Shown: positions 20,880 through 49,597 of the stretch, one piece after another
Layout: each line of letters starts with the position of its first letter
Position numbering within the stretch: the stretch's first letter is position 1
Assembly: GCF_000708885.1 (NCBI RefSeq)
Contig: NZ_JEOE01000003.1
Coordinates: forward strand, 1 to 64,000
Reading direction: 5' to 3'
DNA: 64,000 bases
Source of the DNA: Cellulomonas sp. HZM
GTDB lineage: Bacteria; Actinomycetota; Actinomycetes; Actinomycetales; Cellulomonadaceae
The notes under the pieces: model-generated
Databases searched by the model: none
The model's input: only the letters and a program-made list of their open reading frames with translations
What the model was told of the DNA's origin: nothing
Position numbers and translations under genes: made by a program

Positions 20880-20977
20880 GACGCCGGGCGGGACACCGCC
20901 GTCCGCACGCGCAGCACGCGCGCGGGACGACTTCAGACGGCCGACGACGGCCCGACGCCACCGAGAGGACCACCTCG

Positions 20978-25460: not shown

Positions 25461-25587
25461 GTACGGACAGATGTCCAGGACGGAGGGCGATGGAAGGCGT
25501 GTGCGCGCGTCATTCACCCGCGCGAGGTGCCGACGCGGGCGCCCGGCGCTGGGAAGATCTCCTCAGTCAGTCGCACGACCCCAATCC

Positions 25588-25593
25588 AAGGAG
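25588..25593 (+). promoter_or_regulatory. ribosome binding site AAGGAG deciding the start at 25602
   Basis: AAGGAG lies 8 nt before GTG 25602 and directly before a signal peptide, so start codons further upstream are rejected. Confidence 0.7.
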
Positions 25594-25601
25594 ACATCAC
25601 A

Positions 25602-27530
25602 GTGAGACGCACTTCGTCCTGGGTGCTGGCGCTCGTCGCCGCGCTCGTCGTCGGGCTCGTGGGCGCGACGCCCGCGACCGCCGCCGACTCGTACACCGTC
25701 ACGGTGAAGGTGACGACCGCCGGCGGTGCCGGGGTCTCGGATGTCTACCTCTCGCTCAGCCAGGACTCGCCGTACTACTGGGACAGCGAGGACACCGACG
25801 CATCGGGCGTCGCGACGTTCACGGGCGTGCCCGGCGCGTCGACGCTCTCGCTCAGCGGCTCCGTGTACGTCGGCAGCACCCAGAAGCAGATCTCGCAGAC
25901 CATCTCGGTCGCGAGCGCGAACGTCTCGACAACCGTCAAGCTCGCGGGCACGCAGGCCATCACGGGCAAGGTGACGGACAAGGGCACCGGGGCCGCGCTG
26001 GCGAACGCCTACGTCAACGCGAGCGCCTGGTCCGGCAGCGGCTCCGGCGGCTACGCGCAGACCGCCGCCAACGGCACGTACTCGATGATCGTCCCTACGG
26101 GCACGTTCCGCGTCTCGGTGTCGGCGTCGTCGGGCGACTACCTCTACTCGTACTACCCCGGCACGACCGACTACAACGCCGCCAAGAAGGTCACCGTCGC
26201 GTCCGGCAAGGACACCGCCGGGGTCAACGTCGCGCTCGTGAAGCCCGGCAAGATCTCCGGGAAGGTCACGTACAACGGCAAGGCCGCGAAGTCGCTGACC
26301 GTGTACGCGTCCGGTCCCGGCTACGGCTCGGCGACCACGTCGTCGACCGGTGCGTACACCACCAAGGTCGACCCGGGTGCCTACACCCTCGAGGTGTACC
26401 GCTCTCCCACGTCGTCGTTCCTGACGACGTACTACGGCGGCACGGTCCGGGCCCCCGAGGCGAAGAAGGTCTCCGTCGGCTCCGGTGCGTCGGCCACGGC
26501 GAACATCGCGCTCAAGGCGGGTGCGACGCTCAAGGGTGTCGTCAAGAACAGCAAGGGCAAGGCCGTCAAGGGCGCCCAGGTCTCGGCGTACAACACGACC
26601 CGCGCGGGCTACGCCTACGCGACCACGAACGCCAAGGGCGCTTACGTGCTCTACGGCCTGGCGAGCGGCAAGGTGAGCGTCTCCGCGAGCACCGGCGACG
26701 GAGCGACCTACGGCACGAAGACAGCCACCGCGACGCAGGGCAAGACGAAGTCCGTCAAGACGATCGTGGTCCGGGCCTACGGCACCGCGACGATCAAGGG
26801 CAAGATCGCCGTCAAGAGCGGAAAGCTCGCGGACGCCACCGCCGTGCTCATCGGTGCGAAGAAGGTCGTCTACGGCCAGCGCGGACCCAGCAAGTCCGGT
26901 GCGGTCACCTTCAAGCACGTCCCAGCGGGCACGTACACCGTGGTCGTCTCGGGGTCGAACGTCGCCAAGAAGGTCACCGTGAAGTCCGGCAAGACCGTGA
27001 GCTTCGGCAAGCTGACCCGGCCCAAGCTCACGACCGTCAAGGGCACTGTGAAGGCACCCAACGGCAAGGTCCTTCGCGATGCCTCGGTCGTGCTGTACGA
27101 CTCCTACGGCACGTGGGCAGGCAGCGCCACCACGTCCACGAAGGGCACCTACAGCATCAAGGGCCTCGCCAAGGGCACCTACCACCTGTGGGCGGGCTCC
27201 TCGTCCGGCACCTACGTCCCCGTGACGTCGACGTTCACCGCCAAGTCGGGCAAGAACGTGAGCAAGTCGCTCAAGCTCAAGACGGGCGGCACGCTCAAGG
27301 GTGTCGTCAAGAACTCGAAGGGCAAGCCCGTCGCGGGCGTCAACGTGTCGGCCGGTGGCGCGTACACGACGACGAACTCGAAGGGTGCCTATGTCCTCAA
27401 GGGCGTCGCGTCCGGCAAGGCGACCGTGTACTTCTCCGACCCGTACGTCGGTGGGTACCTGAACGCCACCAAGTCGGCGAAGGCGAAGGCGGGCAAGACG
27501 GTCTCGGTCTCGACGGTCAAGCTGAAGTGA
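25602..27530 (+). CDS. secreted carboxypeptidase-regulatory-like repeat protein
   Basis: Exported protein of 642 aa. A signal peptide (residues 1-27, ending ATPATAA) is followed by a chain of seven to eight beta-sandwich repeats of the carboxypeptidase regulatory-like type, each opening with a pattern such as ITGKVTDKGTG or LKGVVKNSKGK and closing near GTYTV or GAYVL. It is rich in Lys, Ser, Thr and Gly and very basic. No sortase motif or membrane anchor is seen at the end. It may coat or bind the anionic wall polymer; that is inference. A strong hairpin follows the stop. Confidence 0.85.
   Translation: MRRTSSWVLALVAALVVGLVGATPATAADSYTVTVKVTTAGGAGVSDVYLSLSQDSPYYWDSEDTDASGVATFTGVPGASTLSLSGSVYVGSTQKQISQTISVASANVSTTVKLAGTQAITGKVTDKGTGAALANAYVNASAWSGSGSGGYAQTAANGTYSMIVPTGTFRVSVSASSGDYLYSYYPGTTDYNAAKKVTVASGKDTAGVNVALVKPGKISGKVTYNGKAAKSLTVYASGPGYGSATTSSTGAYTTKVDPGAYTLEVYRSPTSSFLTTYYGGTVRAPEAKKVSVGSGASATANIALKAGATLKGVVKNSKGKAVKGAQVSAYNTTRAGYAYATTNAKGAYVLYGLASGKVSVSASTGDGATYGTKTATATQGKTKSVKTIVVRAYGTATIKGKIAVKSGKLADATAVLIGAKKVVYGQRGPSKSGAVTFKHVPAGTYTVVVSGSNVAKKVTVKSGKTVSFGKLTRPKLTTVKGTVKAPNGKVLRDASVVLYDSYGTWAGSATTSTKGTYSIKGLAKGTYHLWAGSSSGTYVPVTSTFTAKSGKNVSKSLKLKTGGTLKGVVKNSKGKPVAGVNVSAGGAYTTTNSKGAYVLKGVASGKATVYFSDPYVGGYLNATKSAKAKAGKTVSVSTVKLK
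26526..27314 (+). repeat. internal DNA repeat in the secreted repeat protein
   Basis: The 24-bp block at 26526-26549 recurs exactly at 27291-27314 (both encode LKGVVKN followed by SKGK) and the flanking sequence is similar. Recent duplication or conversion between repeats is likely. Confidence 0.75.
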
Positions 27531-27596: not shown

Positions 27597-30356
27597 TCAG
27601 CGGCCGAGCACGACCGCCGAGATCCGCACCGGCTTCGAGTCGGCGGTCGTGATCGTGAGCGTGCCGCTCGTCGCCTTCGTCAGGGCGACGTCGACGTGGT
27701 GGTGCGTCGAGTGCGCGCGTGATGCGAGCGAGACTGTCGCGACCTTGGTGCCACCAACGCGCACGACGACGCGGCCGCGACCCGGTGCCGAGTCGACGAT
27801 CAGGCGCACCTCGCGTACCTTGACCGCCTTCGCGACCGTCAGGGTGCGTCCCTTGCTCGTCGCCTGCCACACCTGGTCGCGATACCAGGCGTCGGCGTGC
27901 TTGGTGGACCAGCCGGCGGAGCGCTTGACGAGCGTGCTCGAGACCGGCCGCGACGCGGACGGGTACGCGGTGATCGCGCTCGTGCCGCCCGCACTCACGG
28001 CCCGTACGCCGACCACCCAGGTCCGCCCCGTCTGCGACGTCGCGAGCCGGTACGACGTGCGCGTCGTCGTGGCGACCTTCGTCCAGGAGCTCGGGAGCGC
28101 CGTGCCGTGCGCCGCGGTCCGGACGAAGACCTCGTACCGCTTCGCGTTCTTGAGCGGCTGCCACGAGTAGGTCGAGGTCGTCGCCTCGCGGAACGGCGCC
28201 TGCGCCGCGGACAGCGCGACCTTCGTCGGCGTCGCGGCCGGCAGGGAGCCCGTGCCGAGCACCTTGGACCCCACGGCGACGCGCGCGAACGCGATCGCGT
28301 TGACCTGCACGCTTCCCGTACCGGCCACCCTGCGCAGCGTGAGCGTGCCCGAGACGGACCGCGGGAGGTCGAGATGGACCACCGCACGCGTCGTGGCGGT
28401 CGCCGCTCGCGTGTCGATCGTGCCGAGCACGGTCGACCCGGACCGGACCTGGAGACGTCCCGTCGACGGACCGCGAGCCACGTCGAGCACCACCGAGCGA
28501 GCCTGGCTCACCTTCACGGCGAGGGTGCGCGAGCCCGAGGTCGCGCGGTAGGACTGCGCACCGGTCACCTTGGTGCTCGACCAGCCCGACGAGCGCACCA
28601 CCGACGACCACGGCACGGGCCGTGTGACCTGCCCGAGGACCGTCACCGACCCGCGGCGGCCGTGGCTGTCGATGCCGCGCACCGCGACCACGCGCGTGCG
28701 CCCGGCGTCCGTCGAGAACGACGTCGACGTTCCCTTCACCGTCTTGAGGACGGTCCACGCGCGGTCGTCGTCCATCGTGTACGTGAGGCCCGACGAGCGC
28801 GTGAGCACCTGGTACCTGACGGCGCCCTTCACGGCGCCCCAGTGGTAGGCACGCGAGGTCGCCCACTGCACGGGCGTCTGGGTGCTGGTCATCGCGACCT
28901 TGCCCGGTGCGGCCAGGGCGGCGACCGGCTTGCCGTACGTCGTGGTGGCGGCGTCGACCTGCGTCTTGACGGCCTTGCGGATGGACGGGAGCTTCGCGTA
29001 CAGCTTCCAGCCCGGGCACGCGGTCCCGTTCGTGTCACGGTGGCCGAGGATCACGGGGACCTTCACCCACGTGCCGGCCTTCGCCTTGGTGTCGCTGCCC
29101 GTGCTGCTGCCCGTGAGGAGCTTGGTGGACCCGGTCGGGTTCAGCCCGTGCGCGTACGCCTGCCAGGCGAACACCTTCTCGATCGACGCGACCATCGCGG
29201 CCGGGGGCGCCGCCGACTGGAAGTTGCCCATCGCCGAGACACCGATGGTGTCGGTGTTGTAGCCGCCCGCCTGCGCACCGATGGGCAGGTCGTCGATCGC
29301 GTCGCGACGGCCCTGGTAGATGGTCCCGAACCGGTCGACGAGGAACTGGTAGCCGATGTCCGGCCAGCCGCGGCTGCCGGTGTGGAACGCATAGATGCCG
29401 CGCACGATCGCGGCCGACTGCGCCTTGGTGTAGCCGTTGCTGCCCGCGGTGTGGTGCAGGTACATCGCCGTCAGGCGCGACGACACCTCGGGCCACGCCG
29501 AGCCGCGCTTCTCGTTGGCACCCCACTGGGCACGGGTCACGATCTTCGGGCGGATGACGTCGCCCTTGGCGGCGCCCTTCGCGACGTCGGTCGTCGTCGT
29601 GGTCGTCGTCGTGGTCGTCGTCGTGGTGGTCGTGGTGGTGGTCGACGAGGCCGGCGGTGCGGGATCCGTCGTCGGGCTGGGTGCGGGCGTGGGATCGGTC
29701 GAGGTCGGGTCGGCCGGGGTCGGGTCGGTCGAGGGATCCGTCGGGGAGTCGTCGTCGGCCGCCACGACGTCGAGACGCAGCCCGGCGGGCTCGGATGCGC
29801 CGTCGGCCGTCTCGACCCGCACCTGGGCCGCGTCCGCCCCTGACGTCACGAGCGCCTCGGTCCCGGGCCGCTCCCCCGCGACGCCCGTGTCGACGACGTC
29901 GAGCGCCTGCCAGTCGGTCCACGTGCCGTCCTCACGGACGCGCACCGCGACCTGAGTGACGTCGACGCGCTGGCCGGGGTCCCACGTCACGCCGGCGACG
30001 AGGAACCGGCCGGTGAACGTGCGGGCACCGAGCGCGACGACGTCGTCGCGCTCGACCGGTTCGAGCCCGTCGTCCGTCGCCGAGGTCGCCTCGCCCGCGG
30101 CGGGCGCGAACGCACCCGGCTCGCGTGCGGCCGACCGGTCGACGCCCCCGACCGCATGCGTCGTGATCGTCGGGTCGTCGACGGGAGCGGTCGCGAGATC
30201 GGCGCTACCCTCCGTCGCGCTCGGTGCACCGCCCTGCTCGTCGGCAACGGCCTGCCGCACCACCGGGCCGAGGTCCGCCTGCGCGATCTCGGCCGGCGCC
30301 ACGAGGGCAGCACCCAGCAGGGCTGCAACGGATGCTCGGATCAACCGTCGGGTCAT
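27597..30356 (-). CDS. PGRP-type N-acetylmuramoyl-L-alanine amidase with C-terminal repeats
   Basis: Secreted peptidoglycan hydrolase of 919 aa. Signal peptide at 1-28; a Thr/Pro/Asp-rich linker ends in 18 consecutive threonines (29589-29642). The amidase domain (about 275-445) begins TRAQWGANEK and has zinc ligands in YLHHTAGS and LGHRDTNGTACPG. After it come two copies of a region beginning TPVQWATSRAYHW / APFREATTSTYSW, each with a fibronectin-like part and a wall-binding-like part (SAGWSTK, AWYRDQVW). It would cut the amide bond between muramic acid and the stem peptide. Confidence 0.93.
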   Translation of the reverse strand: MTRRLIRASVAALLGAALVAPAEIAQADLGPVVRQAVADEQGGAPSATEGSADLATAPVDDPTITTHAVGGVDRSAAREPGAFAPAAGEATSATDDGLEPVERDDVVALGARTFTGRFLVAGVTWDPGQRVDVTQVAVRVREDGTWTDWQALDVVDTGVAGERPGTEALVTSGADAAQVRVETADGASEPAGLRLDVVAADDDSPTDPSTDPTPADPTSTDPTPAPSPTTDPAPPASSTTTTTTTTTTTTTTTTTTDVAKGAAKGDVIRPKIVTRAQWGANEKRGSAWPEVSSRLTAMYLHHTAGSNGYTKAQSAAIVRGIYAFHTGSRGWPDIGYQFLVDRFGTIYQGRRDAIDDLPIGAQAGGYNTDTIGVSAMGNFQSAAPPAAMVASIEKVFAWQAYAHGLNPTGSTKLLTGSSTGSDTKAKAGTWVKVPVILGHRDTNGTACPGWKLYAKLPSIRKAVKTQVDAATTTYGKPVAALAAPGKVAMTSTQTPVQWATSRAYHWGAVKGAVRYQVLTRSSGLTYTMDDDRAWTVLKTVKGTSTSFSTDAGRTRVVAVRGIDSHGRRGSVTVLGQVTRPVPWSSVVRSSGWSSTKVTGAQSYRATSGSRTLAVKVSQARSVVLDVARGPSTGRLQVRSGSTVLGTIDTRAATATTRAVVHLDLPRSVSGTLTLRRVAGTGSVQVNAIAFARVAVGSKVLGTGSLPAATPTKVALSAAQAPFREATTSTYSWQPLKNAKRYEVFVRTAAHGTALPSSWTKVATTTRTSYRLATSQTGRTWVVGVRAVSAGGTSAITAYPSASRPVSSTLVKRSAGWSTKHADAWYRDQVWQATSKGRTLTVAKAVKVREVRLIVDSAPGRGRVVVRVGGTKVATVSLASRAHSTHHHVDVALTKATSGTLTITTADSKPVRISAVVLGR
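29589..29642. repeat. poly-threonine trinucleotide tract
   Basis: Eighteen uninterrupted Thr codons on the minus strand, all ACC or ACG, form a near-perfect trinucleotide repeat in the linker before the amidase domain. Confidence 0.9.
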
Positions 30357-33737: not shown

Positions 33738-34613
33738 TCAGATCACGGGCGGACGCCCTCGCAGGGTCATGCGCGCCACGGTCCGCCACGACATGACCTG
33801 CCGCTCCCCCGCGTCGCTCGTGACGCCCTCCCGGAACCCGCCGAACCACACGCGCAGCGCGGGCAGGTCGGAGCGGTCCCGGATCACCTGCGCCGCCGTC
33901 CACGTGCCCACGTACAGCGGGCGCAGCAGTGCCGGGAGGTTGCGGCGCGCGAGCCACACGCGGTTGCGCCCGTTGAGCCGCTGCGAGACCGCGTGCCGCG
34001 ACGGGTGCGTCGCCGGGTGGTGCATCTCGACGTCACCCATGTGCCACACCTCGAAGCCCTGGTCCCACACGCGCCACGCGAGCTCGATGCCCTCGTGCGC
34101 GTAGAAGAACTGGCCCGCCCACCCGTGCGCGCCCTCGAACGCGTCGCGGCGCACCATGGTGACCCCCTCCGTGACCGAGAAGATCGGCGTCGAGCGTTCC
34201 GGGTCGCCCTTGCGCAGCCGGCGCACCCACCGACCGGGCGGCTCGGACCCGTCGAGCGTCGTGAGCAGCGCCTGCGCCATGCCGAGGCGCGAGCTGCGAG
34301 CGAAGCGCTCCGCCATGGTGCGCAGCGCGTCGGTCGACGGGATGACCGCATCGTCGTCCAGGAAGAAGATCAGGTCCCCGACGACGTGCGCGGCGCCGAC
34401 GTTGCGGCCCTCGGGGATGCCCACGTTCTCCGCGAGCGCCAGCCCGCGCGCACCGTCGGGCAGGCCCGTCGGCTCCCAGCCGTTGCCGACGACGAGCACG
34501 TCGAGGTCGACGCCCTCCTGCGCGAGGGCGGAGGAGACCGCGGTCGCGAGCTCGACCGGGCGGTTGCCCATCGACAGGACGACGACGCCGACGGACGGCA
34601 ACGCGGCGCTCAT
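33738..34613 (-). CDS. family 2 glycosyltransferase
   Basis: Protein of 291 aa with a single GT-A domain: VGVVVLSMGNRPVELATAV, NVGIPEGRNVGAAH and FFLDDDAVIPS with the metal-binding aspartates, then EGVTMVRRDAFE and the acceptor-side motif YAHEGIELAWRVWDQGFEV. No membrane segment. The ATG overlaps the stop of the CDP-alcohol phosphatidyltransferase gene by 4 bp (ATGA), so it is the last of a four-gene coupled operon (37352 to 33738). Confidence 0.9.
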   Translation of the reverse strand: MSAALPSVGVVVLSMGNRPVELATAVSSALAQEGVDLDVLVVGNGWEPTGLPDGARGLALAENVGIPEGRNVGAAHVVGDLIFFLDDDAVIPSTDALRTMAERFARSSRLGMAQALLTTLDGSEPPGRWVRRLRKGDPERSTPIFSVTEGVTMVRRDAFEGAHGWAGQFFYAHEGIELAWRVWDQGFEVWHMGDVEMHHPATHPSRHAVSQRLNGRNRVWLARRNLPALLRPLYVGTWTAAQVIRDRSDLPALRVWFGGFREGVTSDAGERQVMSWRTVARMTLRGRPPVI

Positions 34614-35434
34614 GCGCGCAGCCGCGAGGACGTGAGGATCGCGACGAGGTGCCCGGCACCGGTCACCACGACGGCGACGATGAGCCCGACGAGCGTCCAG
34701 CGCGTCACGTCGTCACCGCCGAGGAAGGCGTCGGCGATCGCCGCGACGGCGATCACCGTCGCCAGCTCGACCGCGTGGAACAGGCGGTGGAACGGCACGA
34801 ACCGCGCGGCGCGGCGCAGCCGGGCGACGCCGCCCACGCGCGGCGCGGCGACCTCGGCCGCGTCCTTCGCCGGCGGCAGCCCGCCCTGCGCACGCGACGA
34901 GACGACGAGGTCGTTGACGACCTTGTTGAGCAGGAGCAGCGTGGCGAACAGGCCGCCGAGCGTCGTCCACGCGAGGTTGTCCGGGATCTCACCGAAGCCA
35001 CCGGCCGCGCGAACGCCGAGCGCGAGCGCGATGAGCGCCTCGGTCGTGTAGTGCGCGAGCTTGTCGATGAAGATGCCGACCGGTCCGGTGGTCCGCTTCC
35101 AGCGCGCGAGCTCGCCGTCGGAGGAGTCGACCAGCATCTGCAGGTGTGCCAGCGCGACGGCGAGCACCGCGAACCCCCACCCGGGCAGCGCGACGGCGAG
35201 CGCCGCCACCCATCCGATCGCGAGCATCAGCCACGTGACCTGGTTGGCGCTCATGCCGAGGCGCAGCGCTACCAGCGTGAGGTACGGCGAGATGCGCCGC
35301 CCGTACACGTCGGCCGTCCAGTGCTCGGCGTTGCGGCGCTGGCGGATCTGGTCCGGCTGGCCGACGCGGCGCAGCTCGGCGACGCTGGGCCGCCGGTCGT
35401 CGGGGTCGTGCGTCAGTTCGGTGGTGCTGCTCAT
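34610..35434 (-). CDS. CDP-alcohol phosphatidyltransferase-family membrane protein
   Basis: Membrane enzyme of 274 aa with about six hydrophobic segments. The family signature is at 103-128: Asp103, Asp106-Gly107, Ala110-Arg111, Gly120, Asp124, but the last conserved aspartate is His128. The family joins a CDP-activated alcohol to an acceptor alcohol, releasing CMP. Both ends overlap neighbours by 4 bp (ATGA). With a CTP-type nucleotidyltransferase two genes upstream, it probably uses a product of that enzyme; the identity of both alcohols is unknown. Confidence 0.87.
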   Translation of the reverse strand: MSSTTELTHDPDDRRPSVAELRRVGQPDQIRQRRNAEHWTADVYGRRISPYLTLVALRLGMSANQVTWLMLAIGWVAALAVALPGWGFAVLAVALAHLQMLVDSSDGELARWKRTTGPVGIFIDKLAHYTTEALIALALGVRAAGGFGEIPDNLAWTTLGGLFATLLLLNKVVNDLVVSSRAQGGLPPAKDAAEVAAPRVGGVARLRRAARFVPFHRLFHAVELATVIAVAAIADAFLGGDDVTRWTLVGLIVAVVVTGAGHLVAILTSSRLRA

Positions 35435-36657
35435 TCCCGTCCTCGTCCGCCGCGGAGCGCGTCGCGCTCGCGGATGATGCGGTCGCACTCGACGACGAAC
35501 CGCTTGGTCGCGCCGCCGACGGCGCCGAAGTAGTACTCGACGAGACGTGCCCGCTCGTCGTGCCCGGGGTCCTGGTCGACCTCGCGCCCGAGCACGTCGC
35601 CGACGTGCGCGATCTCGCGCGCCGTGAGCCGGGGCACGGCGGCCAGCAGCCGCGTCTCCGCGACGTCGGCGCCCTGCGGCGGGACCGTGACGACGAGCGG
35701 GCGACCCGTCGCGAGCCAGTCGAACGCGATGGCCGAGACGTCGGTGACCATGACGTCGGCACGCGCGAACGTCCGGTAGGGGTCGGCACCGGTGTCGACC
35801 ACGTGGCCAGGCCCGGCCGCCGCGAGGATCGCGCGGATCCGCTCGTCGGCGGTCGCGAACCGGGCGTCGCTCACGCCCGTGCGCGGGTGCGGCCGGTAGA
35901 CCACGCGGAAGCGTCCGTCGTCGACCAGCGCCTGCACGAGCCGCTCGCCGTGGCTCACGACCGACGAGTACGCCGAGGACCCCTGCCCGCCTTCCCAAGT
36001 GGGCGCGTAGAGGACGACGACCGGCGAGCCCGGAGCACGCTCACGCGGACCGGTCGGGACGTCGTCGAGCTGCGGTCGCCCGACCGCGACGACGTGCGCG
36101 GGGGCGTCGAAGTTCATGAGCTGGCCCGCGAACCGGTCGATCGCGCCCTGGCCCGCGACGAACGCGTAGTCGTACGCCTTGACCAAGTTGGACGCCGAGA
36201 CCCGCTTGTCGCTCTCGCCGTGCGAGAGGAACACGTGCATCGCGCCCGGGACCCGCAGCGCGTTGAAGTTGCCCACGTCGTGCCCGACGTAGCAGAACAG
36301 CGCGACGTCCGAGCGTTCCGCGAGCGCGTCGATCGTCGCGCTGCGGCCCACGACGACGACGGGAAGCGGCTGCTCGCGCGCGACGACCCGGGCCGCGCGG
36401 GAGTCGGCGCACACCACGAGGACCCGGTGCTCGGCGTCGAGCGCGCGCAGCGGCGCGTACCACTGCCGGAGCTGGTACAGGTTCTGCACCGTGCCGGCGA
36501 AGTACACGACGACGCGCTGCTCGTGGCTCGCCGCGAGCACGGCCGCGTCGTCACCGAGCCCGTCGGGCATGCCCGCGGGGAGCCAGCCGAGCCTGCGCAG
36601 GGCGCTGCCGCCCCAGCTGCGCACGCGTCGGCGCAGGCGCGCCCGATCGAAGCCCAC
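35431..36657 (-). CDS. CDP-glycerol glycerophosphotransferase-family protein, paralogue 2
   Basis: Protein of 408 aa, closest in layout to the products of 24182-25426 and 39688-40920. Motifs: HGESDK (146-151), YAPTWEG (217-223), RPHP (255-258) and DVSAIAFDWL (from 306). Both it and paralogue 1 begin with a similar stretch, RRLGWLPAGMPDG here. GTG 36657 starts 5 bp after the nucleotidyltransferase stop and is preferred because it begins the conserved part. It overlaps the CDP-alcohol transferase gene by 4 bp. Confidence 0.88.
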   Translation of the reverse strand: MGFDRARLRRRVRSWGGSALRRLGWLPAGMPDGLGDDAAVLAASHEQRVVVYFAGTVQNLYQLRQWYAPLRALDAEHRVLVVCADSRAARVVAREQPLPVVVVGRSATIDALAERSDVALFCYVGHDVGNFNALRVPGAMHVFLSHGESDKRVSASNLVKAYDYAFVAGQGAIDRFAGQLMNFDAPAHVVAVGRPQLDDVPTGPRERAPGSPVVVLYAPTWEGGQGSSAYSSVVSHGERLVQALVDDGRFRVVYRPHPRTGVSDARFATADERIRAILAAAGPGHVVDTGADPYRTFARADVMVTDVSAIAFDWLATGRPLVVTVPPQGADVAETRLLAAVPRLTAREIAHVGDVLGREVDQDPGHDERARLVEYYFGAVGGATKRFVVECDRIIRERDALRGGRGRE

Positions 36658-36662
36658 GCGGC

Positions 36663-37352
36663 TCAGACGTGCTCGTTGGCGCGCTCGAGGTCCTCGTCGA
36701 AGTCGACCTCGACCGCCCACAGGTCGGAGATGTCGACCGGCAGGAACTTCACGCCGTCGCGCTCGATCGCCAGCTCGATGCCGCGCTCGAAGTAGTCCTG
36801 GTCCTCGACTTCCTCGAGCCGCGCGACGAGGGTCGCCTTGTCCTGCGCCGCGACGTAGTTGATGCCCACGGCCTCGCCCAGCGCGTCGACGACCTGCTTG
36901 GAGAGGGCGTCGATGTACCCGTCGGCGTCGACCGTGTACTTGACCTCCTCCTCGGCCACCTTGGCGGTGTTGACCGAGACGAGCGAGGTCTCGCTCTCGA
37001 GGTACGGCTTGAGTCGCTCGAGGATCGCGGGGTCGAACACGACGTCGCCGTTCATCCACAGCACGCCGCCGTCGCCCGACGCGCGCAGCACGCGCAGCAG
37101 GCTCTTCGACGTGTTCGTGCGGTCGTACTCCTCGTTGTAGACGAACAGCGAGCGAGGGTGCGCCTCGAGGATCATCTCGAGCTTGAAGCCGACGACCGTG
37201 TAGAGCTGCACGTCGGCGAACGCACCACGGATCTTCTCGACCTGCTGGTCCATGATCGTGTGCCCGTCGCGCAGCGGCGTGAGCGGCTTGGGGAACGGCC
37301 GTCCGAGCCGGGTGCCCATGCCTGCGGCGAGGATCGCCACCTGAGTCGTCAT
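36663..37352 (-). CDS. LicC-like nucleotidyltransferase (phosphocholine cytidylyltransferase family)
   Basis: Protein of 229 aa with the NTP-transferase fold: AILAAGMGTRLGRPFPKPL (6-24), NTSKSLLRVL and MNGDVVFDP with the metal-binding Asp. The short form with YNEEYDRTNTSKSL resembles LicC/inositol-phosphate cytidylyltransferase-type enzymes, which activate a phosphorylated alcohol with CTP. First gene of a coupled set with a TagF-like transferase, a CDP-alcohol transferase and a GT2 enzyme. The activated alcohol cannot be named. Confidence 0.85.
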   Translation of the reverse strand: MTTQVAILAAGMGTRLGRPFPKPLTPLRDGHTIMDQQVEKIRGAFADVQLYTVVGFKLEMILEAHPRSLFVYNEEYDRTNTSKSLLRVLRASGDGGVLWMNGDVVFDPAILERLKPYLESETSLVSVNTAKVAEEEVKYTVDADGYIDALSKQVVDALGEAVGINYVAAQDKATLVARLEEVEDQDYFERGIELAIERDGVKFLPVDISDLWAVEVDFDEDLERANEHV

Positions 37353-37481: not shown

Positions 37482-39626
37482 TCACCGTCCGACGTACGGC
37501 TCCAGCCGCTCCCACAGGTACGGCGCGACGCTGCGCGCGTAGGTCGACGAGATGTGGTCGTCGTCGCGGTGCACGTCGGCACCCCCGATGACCGCCGGGC
37601 ACGTCGAGCCCTTGCAGTACAGGTCGGTGAGCTCGACGAGAGGCACGCGCCCCTGGCTGCGGTCCGTGGCGTCGCGCAGCGGGTCGTGCTTCACGAGCAC
37701 GTCGGCGCGGCGCTGGTCGCACCGGCTCGGGTCGGCGCGACCCTCCTTGAGGAGGCACTCGTTGGGGTCCGTGTGCGACGTCGGGTTGTCGAGGATCGCG
37801 ACCACCGGGGTGCCCGCGTCGAGCACCGGCTGCCATGCGTCCAGGAGGCCGGAGGCGACCACGTCGCGCTTGTTCGCCCCCGCGGGCACCTGCATCTTCT
37901 GGCGCGCGTACCCGGTCACGACGACGGCGTCGTAGTCGTGCGCCTTCGCCAGGAGGTCGGCGCCCACCTCCTGCTGCCATGTCCCGCAGCCCTGAGCGAC
38001 GGACGGCACCGAACGCCTCGGCAGGACCGTGCTCCAGACGCACGACGCCTTGAGGTAGCTGGTCACGACGACGTCGCCGTCGTCGACCAGGCGCTCGAAC
38101 GCCGGCAGCATCGCGCGTGCGTGCGAGTCGCCCACCAGGGCGATGTGCGGCACGCCGGCACGCGGCTTGCCGAACGTGCACGGTTCCATGTCCGGCTCGC
38201 TGTTGTCGCTCCAGCACTGCTGCAGCCCGGCGTCGTCGTTCTTCACGTCGGACGGGTCGGGGACGACGACGTGCGCGAGAGCCGGGTCGGGGCACCCCTT
38301 GCCGTCGTTCACCATGCTGGCGGCGCCGAAGCAGTGCGGCTTGCTCGCGACGACACTCTCGGCGTGGGCGGCCGCCCGTGCGCTCGCGGCACCCGCGGCG
38401 TTCGAGCCGACGACGCACACGGCGGCGACGACGCACATGCCCGCCGCGGTGAGCGCGAACGTCACGCCGGACCGTCGCAGCCCGAACCGGTGCGTCGACC
38501 GCACGGGGTCCTCGACCCACCGCTTGGTCGCCCACGCCAGCACGACCACCGCTGCGAGCAGGAGCAGCTTGTCGACGGCGTGCAGCTCGTGACCGAGCGC
38601 GAACGGCAGGATCACGATCGGCGGCCAGTGCCACAGGTACGTCGAGTAGGAGATGTCACCGAGCGTCTGGACGGGCCGCAGGGCCAGCGCGCGGGTCGGC
38701 GCCCACGCCGCACGCGGCGCTCCCGCGGCGATCACCGCGGCGGTGCCGAGCACCGGCACGAGCGCGGCGGTGCCGGGGAACGGTGTCGCCGAGGTGAACG
38801 ACACGCCCGTCCATGCCAGCGCTCCGAGCCCGGCCCACGAGAGCACCGCTCGAGCCCTGTCGAAGCGTTGCGCGCGCTCCTCGAACGCCACCATCGCGAG
38901 CGCGAGCAGCGCCCCGGCGCCGAACTGCCACGCGCGGGCTGTCGTGACGAAGTACGCCTGCGGCGCGTCGGTCGTCGTCAGGTGCAGGGACCACCCGAAG
39001 CTCACGACCGTGACGACGCCCAGCAGAGCCGCCGCCACCGTGCCGTTCCTGCGGCCCGTGCGCGCGGCAACCCAGAGCGCGAGGAGCACGAGCAGCGGCC
39101 ACACGAGGTAGAACTGCTCCTCGACCGAGAGCGACCAGTAGTGCTGCACGGGAGACGGCGCGGCGTCGGCCGCGAGGTAGTCGACGGCGTCGTGCGCCAG
39201 GACCCAGTTCAGGACGTAGAAGCCCGCGGCGCCGACCTGACGCAGGTAGTCCTTCCACAGGCCGCTCGGGACCCATGCGAACGTCGCGACCGCGGTGACC
39301 ACGAGCACGAGGAGCGACGCAGGCAGCAGTCGGCGCGCACGCCGCGCCCAGAACCGCCCGAGCGCGACGCGCCCCGTGCGCTCACCCTCCCGCAGCAGGT
39401 GCCCGGTGATGAGGAAGCCGGAGATGACGAAGAAGACGTCGACGCCCACGTAGCCGCCGGTGAGCCGCTTGGGCCACAGGTGGTAGAGCACCACGAGCAT
39501 CACCGCGACGGCACGCAGCGCCTGGACCTCGACGCGCACCTTCGTGCCGGACGGGCGCCGCTCGGCCGGCGGGACGGCCACCTCGGGCGGGACGTCCTCG
39601 GCGACGGACGGACGGGTCGACGACAC
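37482..39626 (-). CDS. OafA/YrhL-type membrane acyltransferase with C-terminal SGNH domain
   Basis: Protein of 714 aa. Residues about 35-400 are the acyltransferase-3 membrane domain with ten or so helices: VVLYHLWPKRL with the catalytic-type His, VDVFFVISGFLITG and WSLSVEEQFYLVWP. The extracytoplasmic SGNH part has GDSHARAML and a C-terminal DDDHISSTY supplying the Asp-His pair. Such proteins O-acetylate surface glycans. GTG 39626 is chosen because GAGGAG lies 10 nt upstream. It is 61 bp downstream of paralogue 3 of the TagF-like family and probably decorates the same polymer. Confidence 0.92.
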   Translation of the reverse strand: MSSTRPSVAEDVPPEVAVPPAERRPSGTKVRVEVQALRAVAVMLVVLYHLWPKRLTGGYVGVDVFFVISGFLITGHLLREGERTGRVALGRFWARRARRLLPASLLVLVVTAVATFAWVPSGLWKDYLRQVGAAGFYVLNWVLAHDAVDYLAADAAPSPVQHYWSLSVEEQFYLVWPLLVLLALWVAARTGRRNGTVAAALLGVVTVVSFGWSLHLTTTDAPQAYFVTTARAWQFGAGALLALAMVAFEERAQRFDRARAVLSWAGLGALAWTGVSFTSATPFPGTAALVPVLGTAAVIAAGAPRAAWAPTRALALRPVQTLGDISYSTYLWHWPPIVILPFALGHELHAVDKLLLLAAVVVLAWATKRWVEDPVRSTHRFGLRRSGVTFALTAAGMCVVAAVCVVGSNAAGAASARAAAHAESVVASKPHCFGAASMVNDGKGCPDPALAHVVVPDPSDVKNDDAGLQQCWSDNSEPDMEPCTFGKPRAGVPHIALVGDSHARAMLPAFERLVDDGDVVVTSYLKASCVWSTVLPRRSVPSVAQGCGTWQQEVGADLLAKAHDYDAVVVTGYARQKMQVPAGANKRDVVASGLLDAWQPVLDAGTPVVAILDNPTSHTDPNECLLKEGRADPSRCDQRRADVLVKHDPLRDATDRSQGRVPLVELTDLYCKGSTCPAVIGGADVHRDDDHISSTYARSVAPYLWERLEPYVGR

Positions 39627-39687: not shown

Positions 39688-40920
39688 TCAGGCCCGCGTG
39701 CCGTGCCGCTCGCGCTGCGCAGCCCGACGGTCGCGCACCACGCGGTCGGCGACGACGAGGAACCGGGACATGGCCGCCCCGGGGCGCGTGTCGCCGAAGT
39801 AGTCTGCGACCACCTCGGCGTACGCGTCGTCGGCGCCCCGCGCCAGGAGGGCGTCGACGACCGCGACCGCGCCACCGGCGTCCTGCGCTGCGATCGTGTC
39901 GACGCGGTCGGCCAGCGAACCCGGTTCCACCACAGCGGTCGGCGACTCGGGCCGGGTCAGCAGGAGGGGACGGCCCGTCGCGAGCCAGTCGAACGCGACG
40001 GCCGAGACGTCCGTGACGCACACGTCCGCGGCGCGCAGGTGCCACCCGAAGGCGGTGTCACGGTCCACGAGGTGCTCCGCGCCCGGGTCGCTCTCGTTCG
40101 CTCGCGCGAGGATCCCCGCCAGGCGCGCGTCACCCGCGGCGAACCGACCGTCCTGCACACCGGTGCGCGGGTGCGGGCGGTACACGACGCGGAAGCGTGG
40201 GTCGGCGACGAGCGCCTCGAGCAGCGCGGGGCCGTGCGAGAGCACCGAGGAGTACTCCATCGAGGGCCGGTCGCCCTCCCACGTGGGCGCGTACAGCACC
40301 ACCGTGCGGTCGTCGTCCGGGAGCTCCGGCCCGGCGTACGTCACGTCGACCTGCGGACGTCCGACGAGCAGGATGCGTGCCGGGTCGAGCCCGTAGACGT
40401 TGCGCTCGATCCGTCGCACGGCGGCCGGCCCCGCGGCGAGCACGTGGTCGTAGGCCTTCAGCTGGTTGGACACCATGTAGGACTTGTCCGACTCGCCGTG
40501 CGACATGAACACGTGCGCCGGCTCGGTGAAGCGCAGCGTCGAGAAGTTCTCGCGGTTCTGGTTGACGTAGAGCATCGCGGCGACCGGGTGCGTGCCGAGC
40601 CAGCGCTCGAGCTCGGCGATCGTCGAGAAGTGCAGGACCGGGACGGGGCACTCGTCGAACAGCGCACGCGCGGAGTCCGGCGAACGCGTCACGACCACCA
40701 CGGGGTGCTGCTCGTCGAGCCGCCGCAGCGGCTCGAACCACTGCCGCACCTGGTAGAGGTTGACGGCGCCGTCCGCGAAGTAGACGACGACCTCGACGGT
40801 CCCGGCGACGACGGCGGGACGCGACCGTGCGATCGCGGCGACCTCTCGTCGGAGCCGCCGCCGGGTCAGCACCTCCCCGACCTTCGCACTCCCCCGTCTC
40901 ACGTCACCCAGCAGTCCCAC
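39688..40920 (-). CDS. CDP-glycerol glycerophosphotransferase-family protein, paralogue 3
   Basis: Protein of 410 aa. Motifs: HGESDK (141-146), YAPTWEGD (210-217), RPHP (248-251) and DVSAVAFDWLATGRPLLLT. The N-terminal 35 residues are basic and differ from those of paralogues 1 and 2. The start is GTG at 40920. It lies between the CHAP protein gene (stop at 40996) and the acyltransferase gene on the same strand, with 75 and 61 bp gaps. Confidence 0.88.
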   Translation of the reverse strand: MGLLGDVRRGSAKVGEVLTRRRLRREVAAIARSRPAVVAGTVEVVVYFADGAVNLYQVRQWFEPLRRLDEQHPVVVVTRSPDSARALFDECPVPVLHFSTIAELERWLGTHPVAAMLYVNQNRENFSTLRFTEPAHVFMSHGESDKSYMVSNQLKAYDHVLAAGPAAVRRIERNVYGLDPARILLVGRPQVDVTYAGPELPDDDRTVVLYAPTWEGDRPSMEYSSVLSHGPALLEALVADPRFRVVYRPHPRTGVQDGRFAAGDARLAGILARANESDPGAEHLVDRDTAFGWHLRAADVCVTDVSAVAFDWLATGRPLLLTRPESPTAVVEPGSLADRVDTIAAQDAGGAVAVVDALLARGADDAYAEVVADYFGDTRPGAAMSRFLVVADRVVRDRRAAQRERHGTRA

Positions 40921-40995: not shown

Positions 40996-42204
40996 TCACC
41001 ACCGCGGGTCGGCGTAGAACAGGACTCGCTTCGCCGAGCGGTGGTGCACGTACACGCCGCGGGCGTCCGTGAACCGGGTCCCCTTCGACGAGTTGCCCTC
41101 GAGCACCACGAGGTCGTCGCCCGACCTGCTCAGCAGCAGCCCGACGTGGCTCGCCTTCTTCGGCGACGCGTTGCGGAAGTCGAAGAACACGAGCGTCCCG
41201 ACCTTGGGCTTGCGGCTCGAGCCGGGCTTGTAGTCCGTCATCGCCTTCTTCGACGCCGCGACGAACGAGTCGAACGACGACCGGGCGGGCACCACGCCGG
41301 GGCGCCCGATCGCGGCGGACACCCATGACTGGAAGGTCCCGCACCACGCCGCCGAGTACCCGAACCACGCGTTGTACTTGGACTTGCGCCAGGCCGGCTC
41401 GCGGTACCCGACCTGCGAGCGCGCCGCCGCCAGGTACTGCGCACGGGCACCGCTCCCGGCCTGGTAGTGCGCGATCTTCGTCGTCGACGAGGCGTACGCC
41501 GCCACCTTCGCGAACTGCTGCGTGCAGCCCGACTCGAGCACGACGCACCGCGCGTCCGCGCGCGGGACCCCGAACGTGCCCGTCATACGCCCCTTCGCGA
41601 CGTACCGGTCGCGGATCTTGCCGGGGACGAACCAGGTGCGGGTCACGCCTGAGCGGACCACCTCGACGAGCATGCCTCTCTCGAAGTCCTTGTACCGCAC
41701 CGACGTCACACCCGAGTCCTTGACGCGCGACGCCGCGACGCGTCGCGTCCCGGTCGTCGCATCGCCCAGACGGCCGGCGAGGTCCTTCGCACGGGCAGCG
41801 AGGGTGCGCGCGGTCGAGCTCTTGGCGACCTCGAGCACCGGACCGTGCACGGACGACGAGCCCGTCGTGCGGACGTAGTACTCGGCCGACCCGGTCGGCG
41901 TGGCGGGCACCGCGAACCGGCCCGTCGACGTCGTGCGGAAGGTCGCCAGCACCGTGCGCGTCGTGCTCGTCCGGCGTACCAGCTGCACCTGGGCGGAGGC
42001 GACGCCGGCCGACCCCTTCGTCACGCGGCCCGTGAACCACACGCTCTCGCCCGTGCGGTACGTCGTCGACGTGGCCTTCGTCGTGACCACCTTCGTCGCG
42101 GCCTTCGTCGCAGCGTGCGACTCGGGTGCGGCCACGAGCGTCGTTCCGCCCAGGCCCAGCACGACGACGAGTGCCGCGAGAACCCTGCCCATCAGTCTGC
42201 CCAT
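40996..42204 (-). CDS. secreted CHAP-domain protein, paralogue A
   Basis: Exported protein of 402 aa. Signal peptide 1-31 (ending ESHAA), an Ig-like domain (about 45-125), an LGFP-like wall-binding unit (FGVPRADARCVVLESGC), and a C-terminal CHAP cysteine-peptidase domain with the catalytic Cys in AAWCGTFQSWV and His in ASHVGLLLS. CHAP domains cut peptide bonds in peptidoglycan. The ATG overlaps the stop of the paralogue upstream by one base; ATG 42192 is an alternative start. Confidence 0.87.
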   Translation of the reverse strand: MGRLMGRVLAALVVVLGLGGTTLVAAPESHAATKAATKVVTTKATSTTYRTGESVWFTGRVTKGSAGVASAQVQLVRRTSTTRTVLATFRTTSTGRFAVPATPTGSAEYYVRTTGSSSVHGPVLEVAKSSTARTLAARAKDLAGRLGDATTGTRRVAASRVKDSGVTSVRYKDFERGMLVEVVRSGVTRTWFVPGKIRDRYVAKGRMTGTFGVPRADARCVVLESGCTQQFAKVAAYASSTTKIAHYQAGSGARAQYLAAARSQVGYREPAWRKSKYNAWFGYSAAWCGTFQSWVSAAIGRPGVVPARSSFDSFVAASKKAMTDYKPGSSRKPKVGTLVFFDFRNASPKKASHVGLLLSRSGDDLVVLEGNSSKGTRFTDARGVYVHHRSAKRVLFYADPRW

Positions 42205-43361
42205 CAGTACGTCGGGTAGGCGTAGTAGAGCGGCATCGAGCGCGGTCGCGTCTTCTGGTAGACGCCGCGGCCGGCGCTGTCACCGGGGGTGCTGGTGTTG
42301 CCCTCGATCGTCACGATGCTCGACGCGTTGACCTTGACGACGACGCCCACGTGCGTCGCGGCCGTGCGGCCGTCGCTGATCGTGTCGTAGAAGACGAGCG
42401 CACCGACCTTGGGTGTCTTGCCGAGCTTCATGTGTGCGCGCACGTCGGCGAGGAACACCGACCACTTCGCGTGCTTCGGGATCGCGCCGGGGTTGCCCGA
42501 CGCGACGGCCGCCCAGGACTGGAACACCGAGCACCACGCGCCGACGCGCCCCACCCACGCGTTGTACTTCGAGTCGTTGTAGCGCTTCTGCCGGTACCCG
42601 ACCTGCGACCGCGCGGCGGCGATCACCTCGGCGGCCTTGGTCTTCCCGTACGCGACCGCGCCCTTGGTGTGCTTGTTGTCGTAGATCGCACCACCCGAGA
42701 ACCGCTGGACGCAGCCGCTCTCGATCAGCCCGCACTTCGGGTCCGCGAGCGGGACGCCGAGCTTGCCCTTCGGGCCGCCGGCCTTCTTGTACGCCGTCAG
42801 GATGTCGCCGTAGACGAACCAGGTGCGCACCGAACCCGCCTTGTTGGTGACCTGGACCAGCATCCCGTGGGAGTAGGACCGGTATCGCACCGCCGTGGTC
42901 CCCGCCACCTTCGCGGACGCCGTCGAACCACGCGCCGCACCCGCGCGGTCGCCGAGGATCGCCGCCCGCGCCGCGATCGTGCGCTTGCCGTACGTGAGGT
43001 GGATCTTGCGAACGGTGCTCTTCACCCCCGACGCGGTGGCCCGTGCGCGGTACGAGTACTCGCCGTAGGGCCGCTGCCGAACGGAGAACGTGCCGGAGCT
43101 CGACGTCGTCGACGTCGCGACGCGGTGCCATCCCGACGACGTGCGGCGCTCGAGCACGACGGTGCGCGCCTTGAGCCCCTTGCCTCCCGACGTGAGCTTC
43201 CCGGTGAACCACACCATCTCGCCGTGGCGGATGCTCGGCGAGCTGACCTGGAGCTTCAGGGACGTCCCGGTAGCGAGCGCGGGCCCCGCAGCACCGACGA
43301 GCCCGCCGAGCGCGAGCACGGCTGCGAGGAGGGCGGCGGTGAGGTGTCGTCGTCGGGCCAT
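42204..43361 (-). CDS. secreted CHAP-domain protein, paralogue B
   Basis: Exported protein of 385 aa with the same order as its neighbour: signal peptide (1-30, ending GPALA), Ig-like domain, LGFP-like unit (LGVPLADPKCGLIESGC, then GGAIYDN), and CHAP domain with the catalytic Cys in GAWCSVFQSWA and His in ATHVGVVVK. The two proteins share the spacing of all these elements, so they are a tandem duplication that has diverged. The ATG at 43361 is 83 bp from the divergent acyltransferase start. Confidence 0.87.
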   Translation of the reverse strand: MARRRHLTAALLAAVLALGGLVGAAGPALATGTSLKLQVSSPSIRHGEMVWFTGKLTSGGKGLKARTVVLERRTSSGWHRVATSTTSSSGTFSVRQRPYGEYSYRARATASGVKSTVRKIHLTYGKRTIAARAAILGDRAGAARGSTASAKVAGTTAVRYRSYSHGMLVQVTNKAGSVRTWFVYGDILTAYKKAGGPKGKLGVPLADPKCGLIESGCVQRFSGGAIYDNKHTKGAVAYGKTKAAEVIAAARSQVGYRQKRYNDSKYNAWVGRVGAWCSVFQSWAAVASGNPGAIPKHAKWSVFLADVRAHMKLGKTPKVGALVFYDTISDGRTAATHVGVVVKVNASSIVTIEGNTSTPGDSAGRGVYQKTRPRSMPLYYAYPTY

Positions 43362-46039: not shown

Positions 46040-49000
46040 TCAGGCGCCGTCCGCGGCCGCGAGCGTCCGCTCGGCCCGGTCAGGGACCATGAGCGACGTC
46101 GCGGGCCCCACCCGGTCGCCGAAGAACTCGTCGAGCACCCGGTCGCTCGCGTTGCCGTCGTCGCGCGGGCCGTACGTGGCCCGGAACTCCTCGAGGTGGT
46201 CGGCGTGGTCCGGCCACACCTCGTCGAGCCGGGACAGCACGTCCGCCAGCTCGGCGTTGGTCCGCACGATCGGACCGGGCACCTGGGTGTCGTAGTCCAG
46301 GTAGAAACCGCGCAGCTCGTCGCGGTACTTCTCGAGGTCGTACGCGAAGAACACCATGGGCCTGCGCAGCGCAGCGAAGTCGAAGAACAGCGACGAGTAG
46401 TCGGTCACCAGCACGTCGGAAGCCATCATCAGCTCCTGCACGTCCGGGTAGTGCGACGCGTCGAGCACGAACGAGGAGTCCTTGTACTCGACCGGCAGCG
46501 GGTTGCGGACCAGCTGGTGGAACCGGACGACGAGCACGTAGCGGTCGGCGAGCGCCGCCTCGAGGCGCGGTAGGTCGAGCGACAGCTCCTGGCGCCAGTG
46601 CACGCCCTGTCGCTCGTCGTCGCGGAACGTGGGCGCGTACAGGATGACCTTGCGGTCGTCGTCGGCCAGCCCGAGCCGCGCACGGACCCCCGCCGCACGC
46701 TCGTCGGTCCCGGGCCACGAGAACACGTCGTTGCGCGGGTAGCCGAGCTCGAGGATCGTGCCGTCGAACCGGAATGCGCTGCGGAACGCCGCGGTCGCGT
46801 ACGCGCTCGCCGACAGCAGCGCGGTCCAGTAGCTCGTCAGTCGCGCCGCACGCTTCTGGTAGTTGCCCTGCCGGCCCGCCATGTTCTCGACGTCGTGCTG
46901 CATGCGCTTCAGCGGCGTCCCGTGCCACGCCTGAAGGAACTCGGTGCCGGTGCCGGGGCGCAGGTCCGCCGGGAAGTTCTGGTTGTTGACCCAGTAGCGC
47001 GCGCGGGACGCGACCCACCAGTACGTGGGCGAGTGCCGGCGGATCTTGCGCGCGCGCGGGTCGGTGAGCCGGAGCGTCGTGTTGCTCGCCCACACCATCT
47101 GCAAGCCGTGCTCGCGCGCCGCGAGCCGCTCGTACAGGTAGCGCGGAGAGTCGCCGTAGTGCTCGCCGCGGTCGCACTCGAACAGCACGACGTCCTGGCG
47201 CGGCAGCCGCTTGGCGACGAAGTTGAGCGCCCGCATCGATCGGAAGTACATCGGCTTCTTGCGGAACCAGCGCCACCCGAGCTGCACGGTCGCGTTGTTG
47301 CGCACCCGCTCGAGGGCCACCTTCGCATCCCACGCGTGCGCGACGACCTGCTCGATCCGCTCGCAGTTGTCCTGGTCCCGGTACGTGAGGAAGCCGTCGG
47401 CTCGCTCGACGAACTGCGGCTCCATCACCAGGTCGCGCGCGATCGTCGCCTCCACCTCGCCGACGAGCTGCTTGGGCGTCGCCGCGATCGGGCCGGGGAG
47501 CGAGACGTCGAAGTCGATGTGCGGCGCGCGCTGACGCACGAGCGCCGAGCGGTCGAACTGGAAGAACAGCACCGGCTTGTGCAGGTAGCTGAAGTCCCAG
47601 CACACGCTCGAGAAGTCGGTGATCAGCACGGCACACGACTTGAGCAGCCGCTGCACGTCGACGTCGTCCTGCCGGATCAGCTGCACGCGCTCGGACTCGA
47701 AGTGGTCCGCGTACTTGCGCATGTTCGGGTGCAGCAGCATCTTCACCTGCATGCCCGAGCGCTCGAGAGCGGCGTGCAGGTCCGGCGACTGCAGGAAGCC
47801 GCGCCAGTTCGCGTAGTAGTCGCTCGCGAGGAACACCTCCTCGCGCATGAGCGCGTCGCGCCACGTCGGCATGACCAGGATGGTCCGCTCGTGCTCGACG
47901 TCGTCCTCGAAGAGCCGGTCGAAGCGAGCGAACCCCGCCACGCTCACCTGGTGCGGACGGTAGCCGTAGTCCTCGACGACGATCCGCTTCTCGAGTTCGC
48001 TCACCGCGATCCAGCGCTCGGTCGGCCGCTCGGCCGTGCCCTGCCGCCCGTAGTTGAGGGTGACGTTCTTGTTGGCGGTGGGCCCGTGCTGGAGGAACAC
48101 GCGCACGCCACGCGCCCACCGCGCGACGCGGTGGTCACGCGACGCGAGCAGGTACTCCGCGTGGTGCGAGCCGACGAGCCGCGAGGCCGCCATCGTGTAG
48201 CGGATGTGCCGGCGCGAGCGCAGCAGCACGACGTTGCCGAGCTCCTCGACCTTCGCGCGGTCGGGCGACGCCGGGTCGATCACGTAGTACGCGCGACGAC
48301 GCGGGCTGTGCGTCCGGACGTGGCGGAACAGCTGGTAGCCGTTGTCCTGCGCCTTGTACGGCACCTCCCCGATCAACCAGATCCGCGTGAACGGCCGCGT
48401 CAGGACGAACACCCACCCGAACGGAGCGAGCCTGCGCAGGTAGCGGTAGTCGGCCGCCGTGTACCGCTCCACGCGGTACGAGACGTTGTGCGCGCGGAAG
48501 GTCGAGTACGGCACGAGCATCGTCGACTGGTCGCCGACCGTCACGGCCGACGAGCGCATGTGCCGGCCTTTGCGGCCGCGCGGGGTGCGCACGCGCACCC
48601 AGCGTTCGTCGTCGGTCCCGGGGTTGGTGACCACGTGTAGGTCGATCGTCTCCTCCGACTGCGGCAGGCCCGCGAGGCCCGTGAGCGGGAGGTCGCCCGT
48701 GACGTCGACGACGAGGCGGCCGTTCTTGACCTCGCTCAGGTCGGGGCGGGCCGCGACCCGCGCGGGCGCGACGACGTGGAGGCCCGTCTGGCGACCGATG
48801 CCGACGAGGTTCGCGGCCTCGATCGGCTGGTTGCGGGTCGAGAGCTCGAGGTCCAGCCCGAGCAAGTCTCCGCCCCGGCGGACCCGACGGGTCACTGTCG
48901 CCGGTGCAGCCTCCAGACGTTCGCCGTAACGCACGCAGAGGTTTCCGCGCTGCGTGTTCTCGATCGTCACGGGCACCCCGTCGACGGTCGCGGCGAGACG

Positions 49001-49435: not shown

Positions 49436-49448
49436 CCCGCACCGCCGC

Positions 49449-49454
49449 AGAATA
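49449..49454 (-). promoter_or_regulatory. -10 box TATTCT upstream of the double-domain polymerase
   Basis: TATTCT on the minus strand predicts transcription from about 49442, only 7 nt before ATG 49435. No -35 was found. Confidence 0.45.
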
Positions 49455-49597
49455 GGACACGCCGGAGCACACCCACGCATCGCTGGTGGACGGTCCCTGG
49501 CGAACCTGGCGATGCCCCAGGCAACAGCTGCGACCCTTGACGATCGGGACGACGTCGGCGCGGGCCGTACGTGTGTGCGAGCGACGGCGCCGTGCCG

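Follow-up and report, generated by a model that had tools for sequence, protein, structure and literature searches.

CDP-alcohol transferases without the fourth signature aspartate in Actinomycetota, and a predicted CDP-glycerol-type step in a teichoic-type gene cluster of Cellulomonas sp. HZM

The window analysed here is the whole of a 64,000-nucleotide stretch of Cellulomonas sp. HZM (contig NZ_JEOE01000003.1, positions 1 to 64,000), and its subject is a run of four minus-strand genes, whose coordinates are given in Table 1. In order of transcription these encode a nucleotidyltransferase (NT) with an NTP_transf_3 domain (Pfam PF12804, 57.7 bits against a gathering score of 27), a TagF-like protein (Glyphos_transf, PF04464, 42.8 bits against a cut-off of 22.1, in a scan of the residues from 36615 on), a CDP-alcohol transferase (CDP-AP; CDP-OH_P_transf, PF01066, 27.8 bits against a gathering score of 22) and a family 2 glycosyltransferase (GT2; Glycos_transf_2, 34.8 bits, above the gathering score). 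The stop of the NT gene lies 5 bp from the start of the TagF-like gene, and 4-bp overlaps join the TagF-like gene to the CDP-AP gene and the latter to the GT2 gene. A preliminary description made from the letters alone had called this a four-gene coupled module; the reading frames, the strand, the gap and both overlaps were all confirmed, and the identical gene order in four other Cellulomonas (L001-L004) supports a coupled set. The search for the quartet in other genomes that it proposed succeeded in these four Cellulomonas, and outside the genus the genes are rearranged around a stable CDP-AP/GT2 core.

The signature of the CDP-AP reads D103-SS-D106-G-EL-A-R-x8-G120-IFI-D124-KLA-H128. It is complete to the third aspartate (D3, D124) and has His128 at the place of the fourth (D4). 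A phmmer alignment places H128 opposite D4 of the solved AF2299, so both motif and alignment bear out the replacement noted in the preliminary description, which had also asked whether close homologues keep the aspartate. His was found at D4 in all 15 relatives from named genomes, which comprise five Cellulomonas, four Plantibacter, two Arthrobacter and four actinobacterial metagenome-assembled genomes (MAGs), one of them labelled Nanopelagicaceae. A profile of 23 members was run without a motif filter against the open reading frames (ORFs) of the loci fetched by then, giving redundant hits that include copies of the same gene. None of the 66 high-scoring hits (at least 317 bits) had Asp at D4: 44 had His and 22 had Ala, and all 66 kept the D1-D3 motif of the metal and CDP site (D1xxD2GxxAR...GxxxD3); the 37 low-scoring hits (at most 116.6 bits) had Asp (33) or lacked the strict motif (4). 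Forty distinct D4-less sequences were collected, 27 with His and 13 with Ala; since they were picked by motif (D1-D3 present, D4 not Asp), D1-D3 are present in 40/40 by construction and only other columns are informative, and two Plantibacter pairs among them are more than 98.5% identical. The background consisted of 54 separate loci (four paralogues from the same genome and 50 PF01066 matches, namely the top 30 and 20 of lower score), of which 51 matched the motif, all 51 with Asp at D4; one of the three non-matching loci has the Asp with a spacing one shorter. A local mutation or sequencing error at D4 is ruled out by the His or Ala in all relatives and in all 66 high-scoring hits. As far as sequences can tell, loss of D4 is a property of an actinobacterial branch of CDP-APs in which the metal and nucleotide site is otherwise kept.

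Of 396 Actinomycetota genomes drawn evenly, 21 gave full-length matches (E below 1e-90); four further genomes, making 25 with any match, gave weak matches alone, to proteins with Asp at D4. Within the family, the CDP-AP occurs in 7 of 150 genomes, and all seven belong to the window's genus, which contributes 17 of the 150. The Ala branch corresponds to genus g8 of family f6, which we take to be Streptomyces, in view of the synteny in PMC13118837. In a tree of 94 rows, the 32 D4-less rows are set apart from the others by a single branch, which has a support of 100/100 and a long stem. The group with Ala is supported at 100/92 and the group with His at just 82/51, and several long branches were flagged. 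Read most simply, this topology would mean that D4 was lost once, by the clade as a whole.

For PIP synthases, the catalytic base is presumed to be D4 (PMC4634129, PMC6506517); PMC4634129 calls it 'absolutely conserved' and reports that changing it to N nearly abolishes activity. In eukaryotic CHPT1, a His-Glu pair on the third transmembrane helix (TM3) has been suggested as the activator of the lipid hydroxyl, and replacing either residue with Ala leaves almost no activity (PMC10182977); for CEPT1, His155 or His197 is proposed for a catalytic role (passages of PMC10156783). Given these two proposals, His-based catalysis has precedent in the CDP-AP fold. One explanation is that His128 itself is the base, after a simple exchange of Asp for His; the preliminary description had put its emphasis on this residue. 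The 27 distinct members with His would suit such an exchange, but Ala occupies the position in the other 13, the GT2 neighbour is kept in 11 of these, and the His group is the weakly supported one in the tree. We consider this explanation very unlikely, and because of the 13 Ala members His128 is not the essential point.

The departure from the canonical sequence is larger than the preliminary description had seen. Eleven DUF5941-type and eleven PIPS-type enzymes, labelled by gene context and tree, served as the canonical comparison set; the arginine columns of the PIPS type are anchored by L019 of the window genome, which aligns end to end with the PIP synthase of R. salmoninarum (E 2.4e-59). 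At D4 and the following position the canonical enzymes have Asp-Arg, whereas the clade has His or Ala followed by Tyr (38), His (1) or Trp (1; n=40). This following position is residue 129 of the CDP-AP, the place of R94 of the PIP synthases, and is mostly Tyr129 in the clade. E37-H38-W39 and E223 are invariant in all 40 distinct members, and H262, at or near the place of the TM6 arginine of the PIP synthases, is present in 39, with Arg in one. Arg and Lys are missing from 218-231 in every member and from 254-269 in 39 of the 40, the exception being Arg262 of L129. In five MAFFT settings, E223 fell on the first acceptor arginine (TM5) in three and on the acid just before it in two, and H262 fell on the second (TM6) in all five for the PIPS type and in four for the DUF5941 type. 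R155, R195 and R94 of the PIP synthases are thought to hold inositol phosphate (PMC4634129 and PMC6506517), and this set was not recovered in the CDP-AP, with the caveats that the TM5 register is uncertain and position 217 is basic. E223 and H262, at or near the places of two acceptor arginines, would be the leading candidates for a replacement base.

It is also conceivable that the CDP-AP is a pseudoenzyme or scaffold, which binds a CDP-alcohol or a lipid intermediate and presents it to the GT2 or the TagF-like protein. The near loss of activity in the D4-to-N PIP synthase, the His/Ala variation at D4 and the tandem with GT2 all accord with this. A degenerating site ought to vary among its members, however, and here all 66 high-scoring copies retain the remaining metal and nucleotide residues while new invariant residues have arisen, so we regard a pseudoenzyme as unlikely. 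Judged by its sequence, the CDP-AP has lost its presumed base and kept its metal and CDP site.

The AlphaFold2 model of the CDP-AP (predicted local distance difference test, pLDDT, 80.7) has the six-helix CDP-AP fold, and its structural matches were AF2299 (Z 17.6, root-mean-square deviation 3.7 A over 218 residues), IPCT-DIPPS (Z 16.5) and PIP synthases (Z 14.8-16.3). As PIP synthases are among the nearest folds, within 1-3 Z units of AF2299, the donor might be CDP-diacylglycerol, with a polyol or sugar as acceptor and a glycophospholipid polymer anchor as the product of the module. This too is unlikely: AF2299 was the sole solved structure found by sequence, and a predicted nucleotidyltransferase, superfluous for the CDP-AP under that explanation, lies nearby in 36 of the 40 loci.

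Neighbours were counted by tblastn, some loci being viewed with 1.5 kb on each side. A relative of GT2 lies directly downstream of the CDP-AP gene, on the same strand, in 37 of the 40 loci; L036 and L130 are exceptions, and L037 is at a contig end. The conserved unit is the CDP-AP/GT2 pair, and it was found in three settings. In the first, with NT and TagF-like genes, are the window, L001-L012, L015 and larger stretches around L023, L042 and L043. NT lies within about 10 kb of the CDP-AP gene in 17 of the 40 loci and about 16 kb off in L022; the strict order NT-TagF-CDP-AP-GT2 of the window is shared by L001-L004, with the TagF gene upstream of NT in L005 and another order elsewhere. The second, in two Arthrobacter, has TagD shortly after GT2 together with TagGH-like genes (L013, TIGR01518, 155.5 bits, just below the cut-off of 165.4; L014 is 94% identical to it). 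In the third, 18 of the 40 loci have a glycerol-1-phosphate dehydrogenase-like gene, 17 of them with a different nucleotidyltransferase, often along with a DUF5941-fused canonical CDP-AP and TagGH-like genes. Because the possible supplier of activated glycerol varies while the CDP-AP/GT2 pair stays, CDP-glycerol is taken as the donor.

Two features of these loci stand apart. The dehydrogenase-like gene abuts the CDP-AP gene in bacterial teichoic-type clusters (L051:8422-9516 and relatives, the 18 loci above; NF002022, 245.8 bits, below cut-off), hinting at sn-glycerol-1-phosphate, of archaeal stereochemistry. A CDP-AP with canonical D4 is also clustered with the D4-less one in L010 (2783-5199), L011, L012, L015, L046 and L048-L053; it is DUF5941-fused, or of a related type in four MAGs, so that two different active sites stand side by side.

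Searching the Protein Data Bank (PDB) with the single NT sequence gave no match at E 0.01. With a profile, the best match was PntC (6pd1, E 1.4e-7), followed by LicC (1jyk, E 0.015) and an inositol-phosphate enzyme (0.039); by fold, GlmU, PntC and LicC were tied, PntC and LicC at Z 18.8 each (model pLDDT 70). At E 0.001, phosphoenolpyruvate (PEP) mutase was matched by nothing in the window genome or in four of nine relatives; the other five of these ten genomes gave matches, all below cut-off. The absence of such a match from the window genome speaks against aminoethylphosphonate as the alcohol. NT and CDP-AP occur together in 7 of the 17 genomes of the genus and are both absent from the other 10, relatedness being uncorrected. 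Sixteen NT stretches were inspected, from 11 of 23 family and 4 of 8 phylum genomes that have NT and lack CDP-AP, plus G225, which has both. Because 11 of the 16 show a TagF- or TarF-like gene within the 20 kb viewed (L167, L169, L177, L180 and L181 do not), NT seems for the most part to belong to teichoic clusters independently of the quartet. The preliminary description had argued from a LicC-like enzyme to a dedicated CDP-activated alcohol, as in inositol phosphate or phosphocholine systems. A dedicated alcohol is still likely, but those two examples found no support: almost every member lacks the Arg that follows D4 as well as the Arg of TM6, and the neighbours are of teichoic type. Phosphocholine and inositol phosphate are thus disfavoured by gene context and acceptor residues.

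The reading we prefer, tentatively and at somewhat less than even confidence, is that the quartet provides a CDP-glycerol-type step of a teichoic-acid-like polymer, through a CDP-AP with a re-made acceptor site. NT would make CDP-glycerol from CTP and glycerol phosphate, and the TagF-like protein, a probable CDP-glycerol user from its family, and the CDP-AP would be two transferases drawing on it. The near-constant tandem suggests that GT2 builds a lipid-linked sugar which the CDP-AP would then modify. The CDP-AP is most likely still an enzyme, which would deprotonate a neutral sugar or lipid hydroxyl at the rebuilt site, with E223 and H262 as candidates for the new base. We are surer of the pathway than of the chemistry. 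A wider proposal is possible but doubtful: that the whole branch works without D4 and has rebuilt a PIP-synthase-type site in which E223 and H262 take over proton abstraction, an enzyme of phospholipid type having thereby become a primase-like CDP-glycerol transferase for lipid-linked wall glycans in Actinomycetota.

Several observations weigh against the CDP-glycerol reading. By sequence NT is nearest to PntC, an aminoethylphosphonate enzyme, and it is not exclusive to the module, since 30 of the 150 family genomes have NT and 7 have CDP-AP; in the phylum sample CDP-AP was present in just 4 of 12 genomes with NT. The TarI-like gene of the window (Table 1) means that another alcohol may also be activated, and it rules out NT as the genome's sole source of a CDP-alcohol. 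The functions of CDP-AP and NT are predictions from sequence, context and fold. How E223 and H262 line up with the arginines depends on the alignment, HHalign leaving gaps or shifting by one: globally it placed E223 on the acid before the arginine (DUF5941 type) or in a gap (PIPS type), and H262 in a gap (DUF5941 type) or on the residue before the arginine (PIPS type), while a local profile-profile alignment spanned TM1-3 alone. L129 has Arg262 along with Ala175 and Phe216. Finally, position 217, six residues before E223, is basic in all 40 members (R 39, K 1) and Arg207 is kept in 38, so the acceptor pocket may still contain an arginine.

Arg217 could hold a phosphate, and an acceptor that is already ionised, for example polyprenyl phosphate, would need no base; CDP-glycerol and the lipid phosphate would then give a lipid-diphosphate-glycerol primer for GT2 and TagF to extend. 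Tolerance of Ala at D4 and the TagGH-type export genes near several loci would agree with this, but the invariant E223 in the expected acceptor region would be an odd partner for an anion, and no CDP-AP is known to make a diphosphate. We consider a pre-ionised acceptor quite unlikely, and a CDP-glycerol transfer to a neutral hydroxyl remains the reading we favour.

Other predicted wall-polymer genes lie in the window (Table 1). The genome has six PF04464 stretches, spread over five proteins, every one of them inside the window, and acyltransferases, a UDP-GlcNAc 2-epimerase and likely wall hydrolases lie around the quartet; no TagG permease was identified among those window ORFs that were scanned. 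The TarI-like gene scored 147 bits with the NCBIfam ispD model and 96 bits with the ribitol-5-phosphate model, both below cut-off. With the adjacent dehydrogenase and TagF-like genes it could form a separate route, possibly to CDP-ribitol, although ribitol is a guess; a main chain of the ribitol type, attached through a linkage unit of glycerol phosphate, would be compatible with these genes. Elsewhere in the genome, the TagD model gave one below-cut-off match outside these loci, and a search for glycerol-1-phosphate dehydrogenase gave two weak Fe-ADH_2 matches outside the window.

Table 1. Genes of the quartet and other features of the 64,000-nucleotide window
Feature	Positions	Strand	Length (aa)	Start	Remarks
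NT, NTP_transf_3 (LicC/PntC-like) nucleotidyltransferase	36663-37352	minus	229	ATG, 37352	candidate CDP-glycerol synthase (predicted substrate)
TagF-like glycerophosphotransferase-family protein	35431-36657	minus	408	GTG, 36657	PF04464
CDP-AP, D4-less clade	34610-35434	minus	274	ATG, 35434	H128 at D4; E223; H262
GT2, family 2 glycosyltransferase	33738-34613	minus	291	ATG, 34613	
AT3-SGNH acyltransferase	37482-39572	minus		approximate	PF01757 + PF19040; possible polymer O-acylation
Second TagF-like protein	39688-40920	minus			PF04464
TarF-like protein	46040-49480	minus			two PF04464 stretches; NF041712 E=4.9e-89, below cut-off
TagH-like ABC exporter ATPase	18926-20917	minus			long ORF; PF00005; NF010065 E=9.3e-58, below cut-off
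IspD/TarI-type cytidylyltransferase	20993-21640	plus			140 bits, second strongest of the genome's four IspD matches
Short-chain (SDR) dehydrogenase beside the TarI-like gene	21660-22391	plus			PF00106
TagF-like protein	22388-24163	plus			PF04464
Tandem pair with LGFP and CHAP-like domains	40996-43361	minus			possible wall hydrolases; CHAP of the first protein below cut-off
ORF with glycosyltransferase domains and DUF6270	56837-61369	minus	1510		
Amidase_2 protein	27597-30356	minus			long threonine run
Protein of repeated CarboxypepD_reg-like domains	25527-27530	plus			

The archaeal AF2299 and IPCT-DIPPS resemble the CDP-AP in fold, in D1-D3, in the residues of the CDP site and in having an associated nucleotidyltransferase; they differ in that here D4 is absent and the context is of teichoic type instead of inositol phosphate. 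The actinobacterial PIP synthase (PgsA1) shares the fold and the signature except for D4, whereas the clade has other residues at D4 and at the Arg that follows, and in 39 of 40 members at the TM6 Arg too, and shows no Arg at the TM5 position. NT has the PF12804 domain and the fold in common with the LicC and PntC cytidylyltransferases, PntC being its best PDB profile match, but its neighbours are of teichoic type, the window genome has no PEP mutase match and its substrate is predicted. A Streptomyces synteny of CDP-alcohol phosphatidyltransferase, GT2, tagG, tagH, araM and a nucleotidyltransferase is already in print (PMC13118837, 2026) and probably contains the same CDP-AP/GT2 pair, that of the Ala branch (L027-L034, L049-L053). 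The passages concerned report synteny in Streptomyces, and D4, the His branch and other genera are absent from them; in the open-licence literature searched, no mention of the D4 loss was found.

The wall teichoic acid systems of the TagB/TagF/TarIJL type are matched in the window by PF04464 proteins and by TagH-, TarI- and TarF-like genes. The teichoic system of Bacillus and Staphylococcus is not known to have an integral-membrane CDP-AP with GT2, and it is this pair that is added here. The D4-less clade points to an uncharacterised step of teichoic-acid-type synthesis in about one in 20 of the Actinomycetota genomes sampled (21/396). The CDP-AP superfamily makes membrane phospholipids, and a conserved clade without its 'absolutely conserved' base would be a natural test of its mechanism.

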